Both the position numbers and the translations under genes were made by a program. From contig NZ_CP083692.1 in NCBI RefSeq assembly GCF_020096995.1, positions 1,054,001-1,118,000 of the forward strand: a stretch of DNA of 64,000 bases, in the 5' to 3' direction. Below the pieces are notes generated by a model. That model saw only the letters and a list, made by a program, of their open reading frames with translations, did no database searches and was not told where the DNA came from. The stretch is from Leucobacter sp. Psy1. Its GTDB lineage: Bacteria > Actinomycetota > Actinomycetes > Actinomycetales > Microbacteriaceae. Shown piece after piece: positions 39,146 through 43,046 of the stretch; the first letter of the stretch is position 1, and each line of letters starts with the position of its first letter.

Positions 39146-40396
39146 TCAGGCCTCGGGTAGGCGAATGCCGACCGTGTTCAGCGATTTCTGCTTGTCGCGT
39201 CGCGTCACCATCACGCTGACGAGCGCGAGGAGCAGCCCGATCACGGCGAGGCCCACGCCGACCCAGCCCGGGGCGAGGTAGCCGAAGCCCGCCGCGATCA
39301 CGGCACCGCCGAGCGCGGCTCCGAGACCGTTGCCGACGTTGAACGCGGCGTGGTTCACCGCGGCACCGAGCAGCGCGGCCCGATCCGCGATCCGAATGAG
39401 TCTCGCCTGGATCGAGGGGATGAGCATCGACTGGGTGATGCCGATGAGGAATACCGTGACGAAGAGTCCCACCGGGGTTGGCGCGAGCCACGTGTAGAGG
39501 ATCAGGGCGACGATGAAGGTCGAGAAGCCGACGACGATGGTCTTCGTCAGGTCGCGGTCGCTCGCCCAGCCGCCGATGAGGTTGCCGAGGGTCATGCCGA
39601 TGCCCATGACGGCGAGCACCCATGGAATGGAGGCGGTCGAGAGTCCGGCGACCTCGGTGGAGACTTCCGCGATGTAGGAGTACACCGCGAAGAACCCGCC
39701 GAACCCGATCGAGCCGACGGCGATCATGATCCAGGTGCGAGGGTTGCGGAACGCACTGAGTTCGGCACGCGCGTTGCGGGAGGGATCACCGGGGAGTCGC
39801 GGCAGCGCGAGGAAGGTGAGTACGAGCGTGAGCGCGAAGATGACGGCCACCATGATGTAGGCCCACCGCCAGCCGAGGTGCTGCCCGAGCCAGGTGGCGA
39901 GCGGGACGCCGACCACGTTCGCCACCGTGAGCCCTGAAATCGCCAGCGCCACGCCCTTGCCCTGGTTGCCCGGGCCCATGATGCGGGCCGCGATGAGCGA
40001 TGCGACGCCGAAGTATGCGCCGTGGGGGAGCGCCGCGATGAACCGGAACGCCGCGAGCCAGCCGAAGTTCGGTGCGAGAGCTGAGGCGATAGTGCCGACG
40101 ATGAACAGGGCGAGCAGGAGGAAGGTGAGCTTCGCCTGCGACGCGCGTGCGCCGAGCGCCGCGAACACGGGCGCTCCGACGACGACGCCCAGCGCATACA
40201 TCGTGATGAGGATCCCGGCGCGCGCGATCTCAGTGGTCGGCGACGCGGCGTACCCGGGGAGGAGGTCCTGCGCGATATCCGGGAGGAGCCCCATCGACGC
40301 GAACTCGGTCACACCGATGCCGAAACCGCCGAGCGCGAGCGCGAAGAGTGCGATCGCTCGGCGGGCCGGGGGGAGGGCGGGGGAGGGCGCAGTCAT
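39146..40396 (-). CDS. MFS transporter (AraJ/DHA1-like exporter)
   Basis: The 416-residue protein has 12 predicted helices and the DHA1 pattern of AraJ/YdhP-like exporters: GGFGIGVTEFASMGLLPDIA in helix 1, FAALGARASQAKLTFLLLAL loop 2-3, and RFIAALPHGAYFGVASLIAA in helix 4. The ATG at 40394-40396 has an AAGG site upstream; the longer open frame upstream, which runs through the repeat-peptide gene on the other strand, is spurious. It is divergent from the repeat-peptide locus and could be its exporter, but that is only positional. Confidence 0.88.
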   Translation of the reverse strand: MTAPSPALPPARRAIALFALALGGFGIGVTEFASMGLLPDIAQDLLPGYAASPTTEIARAGILITMYALGVVVGAPVFAALGARASQAKLTFLLLALFIVGTIASALAPNFGWLAAFRFIAALPHGAYFGVASLIAARIMGPGNQGKGVALAISGLTVANVVGVPLATWLGQHLGWRWAYIMVAVIFALTLVLTFLALPRLPGDPSRNARAELSAFRNPRTWIMIAVGSIGFGGFFAVYSYIAEVSTEVAGLSTASIPWVLAVMGIGMTLGNLIGGWASDRDLTKTIVVGFSTFIVALILYTWLAPTPVGLFVTVFLIGITQSMLIPSIQARLIRIADRAALLGAAVNHAAFNVGNGLGAALGGAVIAAGFGYLAPGWVGVGLAVIGLLLALVSVMVTRRDKQKSLNTVGIRLPEA

Positions 40397-40592: not shown

Positions 40593-40627
40593 CGCACTGG
40601 CCCGCCAGCTGAATTCGAGGAGGAATC

Positions 40628-40879
40628 ATGAGCGGTACGGAAGAGGATACGAGCGGTCTCGAGGGTCCGGCTGACGGCGGTGCTGCGGGTACGCCGGGTA
40701 TTCACGATGGTGGTGCCGACGGCGGTGCTGAGGGTCCGGCCGATGGTGGCGCGGCGGGTACGCCAGGTGTTCACGATGGTGGTGCCGACGGCGGTGCTGA
40801 GGGTCCGGCTGACGGTGGCGCGGCGGGTACGCCGGGTGTTCACGATGGTGGTGCCGACGGCGGCGCGGATCGCTCTTGA
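40628..40879 (+). CDS. Repeat peptide: probable precursor of a modified peptide
   Basis: The 83-residue protein has an 11-residue N-terminus (MSGTEEDTSGL), three tandem copies of a 23-residue unit and a three-residue tail (DRS). Each unit starts EGPADGGAAG, continues TPG plus Val or Ile, and ends HDGGADGGA. It therefore has one His, three Asp, one Glu, no Lys, Arg, Cys or aromatic residues, and is very acidic. A strong GAGGAGGAA site (40616-40624) precedes the ATG. The stop overlaps the TTG start of a JmjC/cupin-4 oxygenase, followed by a sucrase/ferredoxin-like gene. The layout suggests a ribosomally made peptide modified by the oxygenase. I do not recognise an established name for it; function is inference. 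Confidence 0.8.
   Translation: MSGTEEDTSGLEGPADGGAAGTPGIHDGGADGGAEGPADGGAAGTPGVHDGGADGGAEGPADGGAAGTPGVHDGGADGGADRS
40661..40867 (+). repeat. Three tandem 69-bp repeats encoding a 23-residue unit
   Basis: Units lie at 40661-40729, 40730-40798 and 40799-40867, exactly in frame. The proteins differ only at one position (Ile in unit 1, Val in units 2 and 3). The DNA differs at scattered third positions in the first half of the unit, while the part from TTCACGATGG through GACGGCGG is identical in all three. That pattern suggests duplication with partial homogenisation. The number of units may vary between strains. Confidence 0.95.
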
Positions 40880-42102
40880 CCGCGTCTGAAGACCGATCCC
40901 AGGACGCCGGAGCCCACGAGGGCGCCGGCGTCCTGGAGTCTCGCCTGATCGATATCGACCGGGACCGTTTCGCTGATGAATTCTGGGGCAGGCGTGCACT
41001 TCTGACGCGAGGGGCCTCCGATTTCTCTGATGTCTTCTCGGCGGGTGCCGTCGACGAGCTCGTATCGCGACGCGGCCTCAGGTCGCCGTTTCTCCGGGTG
41101 GCGAAGGACGGTGCCACGCTGCCGACGACGACGTTCACCTCGGGTGCCGGTGTCGGAGCGACGATTTCGGATCAGCTCGACGACACCGCCCTCTGGCGTC
41201 AGTTCGACGACGGCGCGACGCTGGTCCTGCAGGCACTGCAGCGCACCTGGGATGCCATCGGTCGTCTGGTGACGACGCTCAATGAGGAGCTCGGTAACCC
41301 GGTCCAGGCGAACGCCTACATCACTCCTCCGCAGAACCAAGGCTTCGACGATCACTACGACGTCCACGACGTGTTCGTGCTCCAGATCAGCGGGACGAAG
41401 CGCTGGGTGATCCACGAACCGGTCTTCGCCGATCCTCTCAGGGACCAGCCGTGGACTGACCGGCGCGACTCCGTAGCGGCTGCCGCGGCGACCGAGCCGG
41501 CCATCGACGCCGTGCTTGAGCCGGGCGATGTGCTGTATCTGCCGCGTGGGTGGCTCCACGCCGCGCAGGCGCAGGGTGAGGTCTCCATCCATGTCACGCT
41601 CGGGATCCACAATTGGACCAGGTATGCCGTCGCTGAAGAGATTGCGGCCGCGGTTCTTCGCGAACTTCGTGAGGTGCCCGACGTCAGGCGGAGTCTCCCG
41701 TTGGGAGAGGCGGGCGCGACCCGCGACATCGTGGAGGATGTCAAGGCGCGATTTGCCGAAGCGCTCGACCAGTCGGACCCGACGGCTGGCCTGCACCGCA
41801 CCCGCCGTTCTCAGGCACGGCCTGGACCGCTCGGACCACTCGCGCAGCGGGCATTCCTCGCAGGCGTGAGCGAGTCCTCGAACGTTCGCGTGCGCGCGGG
41901 TCTCGAGGCGAGATTCGTGGGGGAGCGGCTCATGACGCGAGTCGGATGGTTGGAGTTCAGCGATCAGGATCGTGAGATCGTGCGCGGGCTCCTGAACTCT
42001 GGCAGCGGCCTCCGAGCAGCGGATGAGCTTCGCGCCGGTGATCTCGGGATCGAGCTCGCGCGGCGCCTGCTGCGGGTCGGTGTGCTGGTTCCCGGCGACT
42101 AA
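40876..42102 (+). CDS. JmjC/cupin-4 domain Fe(II)/2-oxoglutarate oxygenase
   Basis: The 408-residue protein matches the cupin-4/JmjC family (RoxA/YcfD, MINA53/NO66-like), which hydroxylates Arg or His in ribosomal proteins using iron, 2-oxoglutarate and O2. The iron-binding triad is visible: H160-x-D162 in GFDDHYDVHDVFVLQISGTK and His228 in LYLPRGWLHAAQA. The N-terminus FADEFWGRRALLTRG is the usual entry to the family. The C-terminal about 150 residues form the winged-helix-like part. It starts with TTG at 40876 overlapping the stop of the repeat-peptide gene (TTGA), so translation is coupled. The obvious candidate substrate is the repeat peptide, possibly its single His per unit. Confidence 0.88.
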   Translation: MTASEDRSQDAGAHEGAGVLESRLIDIDRDRFADEFWGRRALLTRGASDFSDVFSAGAVDELVSRRGLRSPFLRVAKDGATLPTTTFTSGAGVGATISDQLDDTALWRQFDDGATLVLQALQRTWDAIGRLVTTLNEELGNPVQANAYITPPQNQGFDDHYDVHDVFVLQISGTKRWVIHEPVFADPLRDQPWTDRRDSVAAAAATEPAIDAVLEPGDVLYLPRGWLHAAQAQGEVSIHVTLGIHNWTRYAVAEEIAAAVLRELREVPDVRRSLPLGEAGATRDIVEDVKARFAEALDQSDPTAGLHRTRRSQARPGPLGPLAQRAFLAGVSESSNVRVRAGLEARFVGERLMTRVGWLEFSDQDREIVRGLLNSGSGLRAADELRAGDLGIELARRLLRVGVLVPGD

Positions 42103-42110
42103 GCGCTCCC

Positions 42111-43046
42111 GTGTCAGCATCCGCGCCGTTCTTCTGCGCCGCCGCTGCGGATCGGCGAGGCGACCCTCTGGCCGGTACGGCGCCGCGAGGAACGACCTGG
42201 GTGCTCATCGAGTACCGCGGAGCCTGGCCGGTGAACGGCTTCGACGGGATCGACCTGGATCGAGCCGTGCACGACGAGGTGTTCGCCGTGGCACGTGTCC
42301 TTCGCGCTCGGATCCTCCTGGTGCGTCGCCACGGTCGTCGGCGCCCAGGAGGTTCGGGTCAGTGGGCGGTGCTGCACCGCACGACGTCCGGGCGGTCGCG
42401 GCAACGGTGGGGAGTGTGGCGGCGCGACACTGATCTGGAGGAGATCGCGCGGATTCTCCGGGCCATTGCCGAAGCGGGAGACGGTGAGGTCGCGCCGCTC
42501 GGAGACGACGACCGGCCCTCTGTGGTCCTGGTGTGTGCACATGGTCAGCACGATGTGTGCTGTTCAGTTCGGGGGAGGCCGGTGGCTGAAGCGCTCAGCG
42601 ATGCATGGCCGGAACGCGTGTGGGAGTGCACGCACGTGGGCGGGGACCGGTTCGCGCCCAACGTGCTCGTCGTCCCCGACGGCGTCGCCTATGGCAGACT
42701 CACGCCCGGAACGGCGTGTTCGACGATCGAGCAGCACTTCGCAGGCCGCATCTCGGCCGATCACCTGCGCGGCTACACGGATCTCGTGCCCGTCGCTCAA
42801 GCTGCCATCGCGGCACTCCTCGCCTCGTTCGGCCCAGCGGGGCGCGATGATTATGCGATCGTCTCCATGGATCGCGGGGCGGAATCCTGGCGGCTGCGGG
42901 TGCGCGGTCCGCACCCGGAGTCTGGTCGGTACGACATCGAGGTCGCAGCAGTCCAGGCTCCGGCACGCCGCCTCACCTGCCGCGGCAGCGAACCCGCGGC
43001 CTCACTGGAGTGCACCGTGAAGGCGATCGCTAGAGCCTCGGGTTAG
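42111..43046 (+). CDS. Sucrase/ferredoxin-like family protein (thioredoxin-fold [2Fe-2S])
   Basis: The 311-residue protein matches the sucrase/ferredoxin-like family. The key segment is VVLVCAHGQHDVCCSVRGRP (Cys and His residues that can ligate a [2Fe-2S] cluster), then ECTHVGGDRFAPNVLVVPDG and GRISADHLRGYTDLVPVAQ. It begins with GTG at 42111, 8 bp after the oxygenase gene. A redox protein in the same operon could supply electrons to keep the oxygenase iron reduced or catalyse a second modification; this is inference. Its stop shares bases with the convergent SRPBCC gene. Confidence 0.85.
   Translation: MSASAPFFCAAAADRRGDPLAGTAPRGTTWVLIEYRGAWPVNGFDGIDLDRAVHDEVFAVARVLRARILLVRRHGRRRPGGSGQWAVLHRTTSGRSRQRWGVWRRDTDLEEIARILRAIAEAGDGEVAPLGDDDRPSVVLVCAHGQHDVCCSVRGRPVAEALSDAWPERVWECTHVGGDRFAPNVLVVPDGVAYGRLTPGTACSTIEQHFAGRISADHLRGYTDLVPVAQAAIAALLASFGPAGRDDYAIVSMDRGAESWRLRVRGPHPESGRYDIEVAAVQAPARRLTCRGSEPAASLECTVKAIARASG

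Follow-up and report, generated by a model that had tools for sequence, protein, structure and literature searches.

A conserved gene group of repeat peptide, JmjC oxygenase and ferredoxin-like protein in Actinomycetota with features suggesting a RiPP-like modification locus

Organization of the locus

We analyzed a 64,000-nucleotide stretch of the genome of Leucobacter sp. Psy1 (contig NZ_CP083692.1, positions 1,054,001 to 1,118,000; hereafter the window, whose own numbering is used throughout), in which three consecutive genes encode a small repeat peptide, a JmjC-type oxygenase and a sucrase/ferredoxin-like protein (Suc_Fer), and which we consider as a candidate modification cassette for a ribosomally synthesized and post-translationally modified peptide (RiPP). 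The features of the locus are as follows.

40618..40623, + strand: AGGAGG Shine-Dalgarno sequence of the peptide gene (from the sequence)
40628..40879, + strand: precursor-like peptide gene, 83 aa, with acidic N-terminus MSGTEEDTSGL and three 23-aa units (open reading frame (ORF) call)
40661..40729, + strand: repeat unit 1, EGPADGGAAGTPGIHDGGADGGA (translation)
40730..40798, + strand: repeat unit 2, EGPADGGAAGTPGVHDGGADGGA (translation)
40799..40867, + strand: repeat unit 3, EGPADGGAAGTPGVHDGGADGGA, same letters as unit 2 (translation)
40876..42102, + strand: JmjC_2 / ribosomal-oxygenase-type 2-oxoglutarate (2OG)-Fe(II) enzyme, 408 aa (PF08007, E 2.2e-29)
41353..41361, + strand: predicted HxD iron site, H160 and D162 (kept in 82/82 family enzymes)
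41557..41559, + strand: predicted third iron ligand, H228 (kept in 82/82 family enzymes)
41815..42099, + strand: C-terminal winged-helix domain, residues 314-408, with a fold like that of the RiPP recognition element (RRE) (model pLDDT, the predicted local distance difference test, 83.4)
42111..43046, + strand: Suc_Fer, thioredoxin-like ferredoxin, 311 aa, with CX8CXnHX3D (PF06999, E 4e-19)

A sequence-only reading of this DNA had described a protein of 83 residues, built almost entirely from three units of 23 residues, coupled through TTGA to a JmjC/cupin-4 oxygenase with an intact HxD...H site and followed after 8 bp by a Suc_Fer-like gene, and this description was borne out. The peptide is recovered by the ORF, its translation and Tandem Repeats Finder, which reports an array at 40653-40863 with a period of 69, 3.1 copies and a score of 357; the oxygenase starts with the TTG of TTGA, overlapping the peptide stop; its identity follows from the PF08007 match and from H160, D162 and H228; and Suc_Fer starts with GTG at 42111, 8 bp past the oxygenase stop, and scores above the PF06999 cut-off (69.9 bits, cut-off 34.9). 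The remark that each repeat has one His and no Arg, Lys or Cys holds for the three units, where the single His stands in [VI]HDGG and the only Arg lies in the tail past the units. The window peptide matched no family in Pfam, NCBIfam or PADLOC; when four relative peptides were compared with Pfam, three matched no family and one gave a sub-threshold hit to Bacteroid_pep (E 0.36). The window genome contains one copy of the oxygenase and one of Suc_Fer.

Conservation of the gene group across Actinomycetota

A genome scan with the window oxygenase returned 29 relatives, including members of Brachybacterium, Arthrobacter, Aeromicrobium, Brevibacterium, Streptomyces, Nocardioides, Microlunatus and Phycicoccus, and a profile built from 30 enzymes matched in 58 of 396 genomes of the phylum. 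The first sample of 93 inspected loci comprised 82 family loci and 11 JmjC_2 paralogues. Twelve matches (L109-L120) had been set aside as likely paralogues before upstream inspection; 11 of them have neither the peptide gene nor Suc_Fer, and L109, which has both, was moved into the family after that inspection. The division between family and paralogues follows no clean score cut, L139-L142 scoring similarly low yet being kept in the family, and on the tree the paralogue label takes three changes, with L119 placed next to L109 and L111 and L113 placed amid the family, the branches of L119, L111 and L113 all being long.

An acidic repeat or Asp-rich peptide is encoded directly upstream of the oxygenase in 76 of the 77 first-sample loci having upstream sequence (a contig end cuts upstream of L013, L029, L060, L124 and L142, L029 still having two units), and of the 81 having downstream sequence, 69 carry Suc_Fer at most about 110 bp further on. 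The enzyme was also found in 52 of 148 sampled genomes of one Mycobacterium-like genus, a genus name that is inferred. The second sample, of 51 loci, took in 28 of these 52 matches (two others were already in the first sample and 22 were left uninspected) and 23 of the 25 matches in the family of the window, Microbacteriaceae, the remaining two being already in the first sample. Here the peptide was present at 51/51 loci and Suc_Fer at 50/51, within 270 bp in 49 and 1,042 bp off in one. A precursor gene adjoining a candidate modifying enzyme, the arrangement expected of a RiPP locus, thus occurs at 127 of the 128 loci with upstream sequence in the two samples, the modification itself being predicted. 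Oxygenases standing mainly without an adjoining repeat peptide, named beforehand as the finding that would speak against the proposal, are not what was seen, the pairing being near-universal within the family. At the commonest junction of peptide and oxygenase, start and stop overlap by four bases (25 of 64 placed family loci).

The association was also recovered from the peptide side. The pattern EGPAD(G/S)GA matched 15 of the 396 genomes, and all five with at least three copies carry the oxygenase; the other ten have a single copy each, a reversed control pattern matches five genomes, and the pattern misses the EGPADGGS type. A fixed-window score of D content classified the EGPADGG type poorly and was replaced by inspection of motif and frame. 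By gene order, the predicted peptide, the JmjC_2 oxygenase and usually Suc_Fer are shown to be one conserved gene group across Actinomycetota.

Selection on the repeats, core types and leader

Family repeat genes contain 1 to 6 tandem units. Over 107 equal-length pairs of repeats within genes, compared in the sense and the two shifted + frames, the proportions of synonymous and non-synonymous differences (pS and pN) are 0.372 and 0.025 in the sense frame, and pN is 0.163 and 0.150 in the shifted ones. Between the window gene and its orthologue in Leucobacter tardus, the peptide frame gives pS 0.53 and pN 0.052, whereas pN is 0.25 and 0.22 in the shifted + frames and 0.234 in two of the antisense frames; the third antisense frame is similarly low (pN 0.038, pS 0.46), so that this comparison alone fails to separate it from the sense frame. 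The repeats change mostly at silent positions and the predicted protein is nearly fixed, a codon pattern that shows protein-level selection on the peptide.

The cores of close relatives follow EGPADGGAxGxPGV(H/Q)DGGADGGA or EGPADGGSNPxGHDGGADGTA, and those of distant relatives are Asp-rich pentad stretches such as DGDAT and ADGTD. A leader, for example MAINDDDITT, LTDEDIETV or LSDDDIQT, is common to mycobacterial, Microbacteriaceae and distant peptides and spans both core types. The first automatic regular expression failed on several true leaders, which were then judged by eye; a second expression counted the motif in 44 of 77 first-sample peptides (missing L128 and L096), and it is visible in 44 of 51 second-sample peptides. 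The clade of the window comprises 34 enzymes on one starred tree branch, and most of its peptides have about 5-13 motif-free residues before the first unit; L096, a member of this clade, retains a related NDDDT stretch. AGGAGG also precedes many peptides of the clade and is weaker in the mycobacterial types.

Two family loci have other cores. At L139 (2302-2511) the core is PTEDDENLDAPGEHSQDTGDE twice, and upstream of the L104 oxygenase there are GGTYGPRDA...ADGTDQGV repeats; the leaders contain DNDI and DDDI, and neither locus has an adjoining Suc_Fer.

Active site and fold of the oxygenase

H160, D162, H228 and K175 are invariant in 82/82 family enzymes, the conserved lysine being the residue that binds 2OG in JmjC proteins, and the predicted catalytic residues are thus shown to be intact. 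The AlphaFold model of the window oxygenase (pLDDT 86.1) superimposes on NO66 with Z 27.5 and a root-mean-square deviation of 5.4 over 375 aligned residues (model residues 8-408), and JmjC, dimerisation and winged-helix domains are present. In its whole fold, iron ligands and conserved lysine the window oxygenase agrees with the ribosomal oxygenases (ROX, PF08007) NO66/RIOX1, MINA53/RIOX2 and YcfD; unlike these, it is encoded beside a dedicated repeat peptide and has Val and Gly in place of NO66 Arg297 and Ser421. The family-typical arginines R69, R123 and R340, found in 79, 81 and 79 of 82 enzymes, would suit an acidic substrate; among the 11 control paralogues, R69 and R123 occur in 3 each and R340 is shown in none.

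The C-terminal domain is modelled as strands followed by three helices. Taken alone it is matched best by NO66 and MINA (Z 6.5-7.8), and the next matches include TbtB (6.1), McbBCD (5.3), NisB (5.2), the PbtF RRE (4.7), PqqD (4.2) and lasso B1 (3.8), of which TbtB, McbBCD and NisB presumably matched through their RREs. The domain thus has strands and three helices similar to those of RREs and matches RRE-bearing proteins. RRE-like domains have been remarked on PF08007 proteins, with bacterial homologues in RiPP-like contexts, and the RRE cleft is made by alpha3 and beta3 (PMC12710340). Nine positions are common to the two classes with a leader and seldom found in the class without one. Five of them map to strands 346-360 or helix 392-401; P is 6e-5 for this region, which was picked post hoc, and 0.03 for the whole C-terminal domain. 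The leader classes were set by enzyme score, and the leaderless one takes in L096, with its NDDDT stretch, and L097.

The candidate acceptor residue

We counted 125 units in 40 genes, anchored on EGxAD, so that the conservation of EGxAD is partly by construction. Of the 125 units, 89 have His directly before DGGAD, and the other 36 have Gln (32, of which 28 by script and four by eye), Ser (2) or Glu (2). No His stands there in 11 of the 40 genes, H and Q both occur inside single genes (L007, L008, L009 and L012), and any His at all is found in just 9 of 37 distant cores. Every core examined contains Asp, 39/39 close and 37/37 distant; L097 was omitted, and for distant peptides the final 30-40 residues were counted as the core. 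Gly and Ala occur in nearly all cores, Pro and Glu throughout the close ones, and Cys in none.

NO66 contacts its substrate His through Tyr328 and Ser421 (PMC4556315), the latter being its most stable His contact (PMC9994133). By sequence alignment, Tyr328 and Asn326 correspond to Y148 and N146 in 82/82 family enzymes, Ser421 to Gly in 82/82 and Arg297 to Val in 81/82; Gly is also the commonest residue in the paralogues (7/11). The paired Tyr328 and Ser421 contacts of NO66 are therefore not found, the Tyr being kept and the Ser replaced. The sequence-only reading had predicted hydroxylation of His or Asp: since His is absent before DGGAD in 11/40 repeat genes and the NO66 Ser is Gly throughout, His is weakened as a general target, and the Asp part of that prediction fits better.

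The Suc_Fer partner

The cassette Suc_Fer motif CX8CXnHX3D is present in 20/20 aligned proteins (20 of 26 found). The thioredoxin-like ferredoxins Aim32 and Apd1 share the Suc_Fer family, the CX8C and the first His, and their second His, as in the yeast Aim32 motif CX8CXnHX3H (PMC8482512), is Asp in the cassette proteins, 20/20. No paper on bacterial Suc_Fer proteins was found in the open-access literature searched.

A proposed RiPP-like modification cassette and its alternatives

We favour, with a probability of about 0.6, the explanation that the locus is a RiPP-like modification cassette. The RiPP-like label, already proposed from the letters of the window, is supported by the near-universal pairing and strengthened because the leader motif occurs in much of the family and the enzyme has an RRE-like domain, and we regard it as strongly supported. 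The peptide is very probably the substrate of the oxygenase, which probably modifies it in a manner undescribed in the open-access literature searched; for Asp as the main acceptor, a weaker claim, we see about even chances. In the leader-bearing form, the RRE-like C-terminal domain would grip the D(D/E)DIxT leader and the JmjC domain would move along the repeats, which are flexible and rich in Gly and Ala; in the mostly leaderless clade of the window, recognition may be direct, through either the repeats or the short acidic stretch at the N-terminus. The product would be beta-hydroxyaspartate at one Asp per unit at least (the Asp of DGG and DGD). Two further proposals are the weakest: Suc_Fer, judging by gene position, may keep the enzyme iron ferrous or supply electrons, and the multiply hydroxylated acidic peptide may remain cytosolic as a metal-binding polymer, a role that the sequence-only reading had also raised and that we consider doubtful. 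Only tentatively do we put forward the broader picture of a phylum-wide minimal three-gene system making intracellular poly-beta-hydroxyaspartate repeats. Such a system would be an encoded acidic buffer for metals that depends on O2 and iron and has a ferredoxin to itself; it would descend from the ribosomal oxygenases or be their sister, and the winged helix would serve in leader recognition.

Several observations weigh against the cassette explanation or parts of it. The leader motif was not found in the window peptide, nor in most of its clade. The structural match list of the C-terminal domain also holds BmdC (Z 5.8) and unrelated non-RRE proteins, its Z values are modest, and NO66 and MINA have the same RRE-like fold, so that the fold alone is no proof of leader binding. 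Leaderless-specific positions are unenriched in the C-terminal domain (4/20, P 0.70), and leader loss is approximately one tree event, so its residue changes are not independent; given these points and the post hoc choice of region, the clustering of leader-tracking residues at what is in the model the likely cleft is no more than suggestive. His is the commonest residue before DGGAD, and almost all units of the mycobacterial and Microbacteriaceae types in the second sample keep it, which leaves room for a His-using subset, and the nearest solved enzymes are His hydroxylases. The sole first-sample exception to the pairing, L097, is a close relative with an upstream acidic ORF without repeats and no Suc_Fer, which we report as a decayed or re-purposed copy, and 12 of the 81 loci with downstream sequence lack a neighbouring Suc_Fer (L023, L027, L028, L029, L092, L093, L097, L104, L107, L124, L129 and L139). 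Unlike most RiPP clusters, the loci have no shared exporter, protease or cyclase cluster nearby: no protease or transporter family was common to at least 4 of 21 contexts, or to at least 3 of 30, and general proteases may serve.

Among the alternatives, beta-hydroxylation of His, with a NO66- or MINA-like enzyme acting at the HDGG of each unit, has in its favour the closest solved relatives, the prevalence of His in the units just described and the Tyr and Asn equivalents Y148 and N146, and NO66 likewise uses a glycine-rich flank (PMC4556315). It is unlikely in view of the genes without His at that place, the mixture of H and Q within genes, the scarcity of His in distant cores and the replacement of Ser421 and Arg297, even if Gly is found in most paralogues too. 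Less likely again is a reaction beyond hydroxylation, in which electrons from Suc_Fer would let the enzyme desaturate, cross-link or cleave Asp-Gly units to give a cyclised or processed product. A ferredoxin-like partner is conserved in most loci and, to our knowledge, a dedicated one is unusual for 2OG oxygenases. The JmjC relative FIH is moreover capable of desaturation (PMC9994133), but the sequence has just a standard ROX site and a neighbouring Suc_Fer is not found in every locus.

It is improbable that the peptide is an acidic decoy or regulator and that the real target of the oxygenase lies elsewhere, for example in a ribosomal protein. ROX enzymes do hydroxylate ribosomal proteins (PMC4556315, PMC9994133) and a Gln analogue of the MINA53 substrate inhibits MINA53 (PMC9994133), but the 1 to 6 tandem units, the several core types and the leader fit a substrate better, and the cassette is sporadic where ribosomal targets are universal. 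Finally, GC-rich genomes easily yield low-complexity antisense or shifted ORFs, and the three genes might be chance neighbours with a low-complexity artefact as peptide; this is scarcely credible, being contradicted by the pairing at 127/128 loci, by the codon-level selection and by the reverse pattern search, in which the five genomes with repeated matches all carry the enzyme.

Relation to known systems

The cassette explanation has a precedent in the biphenomycin RiPP pathway, where the JmjC/cupin enzymes BipG/BpmG and PbsQ hydroxylate a ribosomal precursor, as is proposed here (PMC12707348, PMC12257519). Those enzymes are ornithine hydroxylases in a many-enzyme cluster with a multinuclear non-heme iron-dependent oxidase (MNIO), an arginase, a B12-dependent radical S-adenosylmethionine enzyme and a protease (PMC12707348, PMC12257519), whereas the window cassette has three genes and the sole basic residue of its repeats is His. 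Bufferins are likewise small modified peptides, copper-binding in their case, made by a different enzyme, an MNIO (PMC12452194), and the cores of the window family are without Cys. The RRE paper, in the part of its text considered here, mentions neither such a family nor a leader or Asp-rich core of this kind (PMC12710340). Neither the repeat and leader strings nor an Asp-rich precursor were found in the open-access papers searched. Judged by that literature, JmjC enzymes in RiPP pathways and an RRE-like fold on PF08007 proteins are known already, and the Asp-rich repeat precursor with its leader appears to be new.

A branch of ribosomal-oxygenase relatives thereby gains a candidate substrate, testable by mass shift, and the ROX winged helix is linked, again testably, to RiPP leader recognition through a clade that has mostly lost the leader and altered the cleft. 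Should Asp prove to be the hydroxylated residue, about a third of the sampled genomes of the Mycobacterium-like genus (52/148) would encode an acidic polymer that may bind metal. Bacterial Suc_Fer proteins would also get a role.

Origin of the window cassette and further observations

The window cassette scores 671 bits, against 412-459 for the other 24 matches in its family, and the cassette is sporadic, occurring in 2 of 54 genomes of the genus; its acquisition by horizontal transfer is therefore most likely. The upstream neighbour is a divergent gene for a major facilitator superfamily (MFS) transporter (39146-40396) and the downstream one a convergent SRPBCC-like gene. L. tardus, whose genome falls in the same genus, has this cassette too, with the same flanking genes. 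Two other genomes of the genus (G006 and G023) have both flanking genes, but these do not adjoin, lying in G006 on different contigs, so that no empty insertion site is readable.

PADLOC, which covers defence systems, gave no match for any of the three proteins. No phage record matched at E 1e-10, and no relative was found in viral contigs. In 150-bp upstream regions, no mean score for DtxR/IdeR, Zur, Fur, Rex, GlnR, PhoP, BldD or CRP-like boxes rose clearly above a single shuffle. Plasmids at E 1e-20 gave solely 17 distant cupins of Streptomyces clavuligerus and Pseudanabaena, with identities of 35.1% or less. On the S. clavuligerus plasmid (L145:3781-3927), a peptide of 48 aa, which combines a leader-like LEPDEIEV with repeats rich in DP, is encoded directly upstream of the cupin enzyme. 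On the Pseudanabaena plasmid, a gene for a LanM lanthipeptide synthetase lies at a distance of about 3 kb from the cupin relative (L144:3932-5152).

Among the paralogues, three related JmjC_2 genes (L110, L112 and L115) are directly preceded by small ORFs with GRSDGND or GKGDGND at their ends, which may be a second, different precursor family. At L113, a 35-aa peptide is encoded on the reverse complement (1815-1922) about 600 bp before a JmjC_2 paralogue, and its leader EDEELEALSGG resembles lanthipeptide leaders. Elsewhere in the window, an AAT-type acyltransferase gene (PF03417, 38029-39093) directly follows two ORFs that resemble ATP-binding cassette (ABC) transporter ATPases by eye, an arrangement that looks ordinary.

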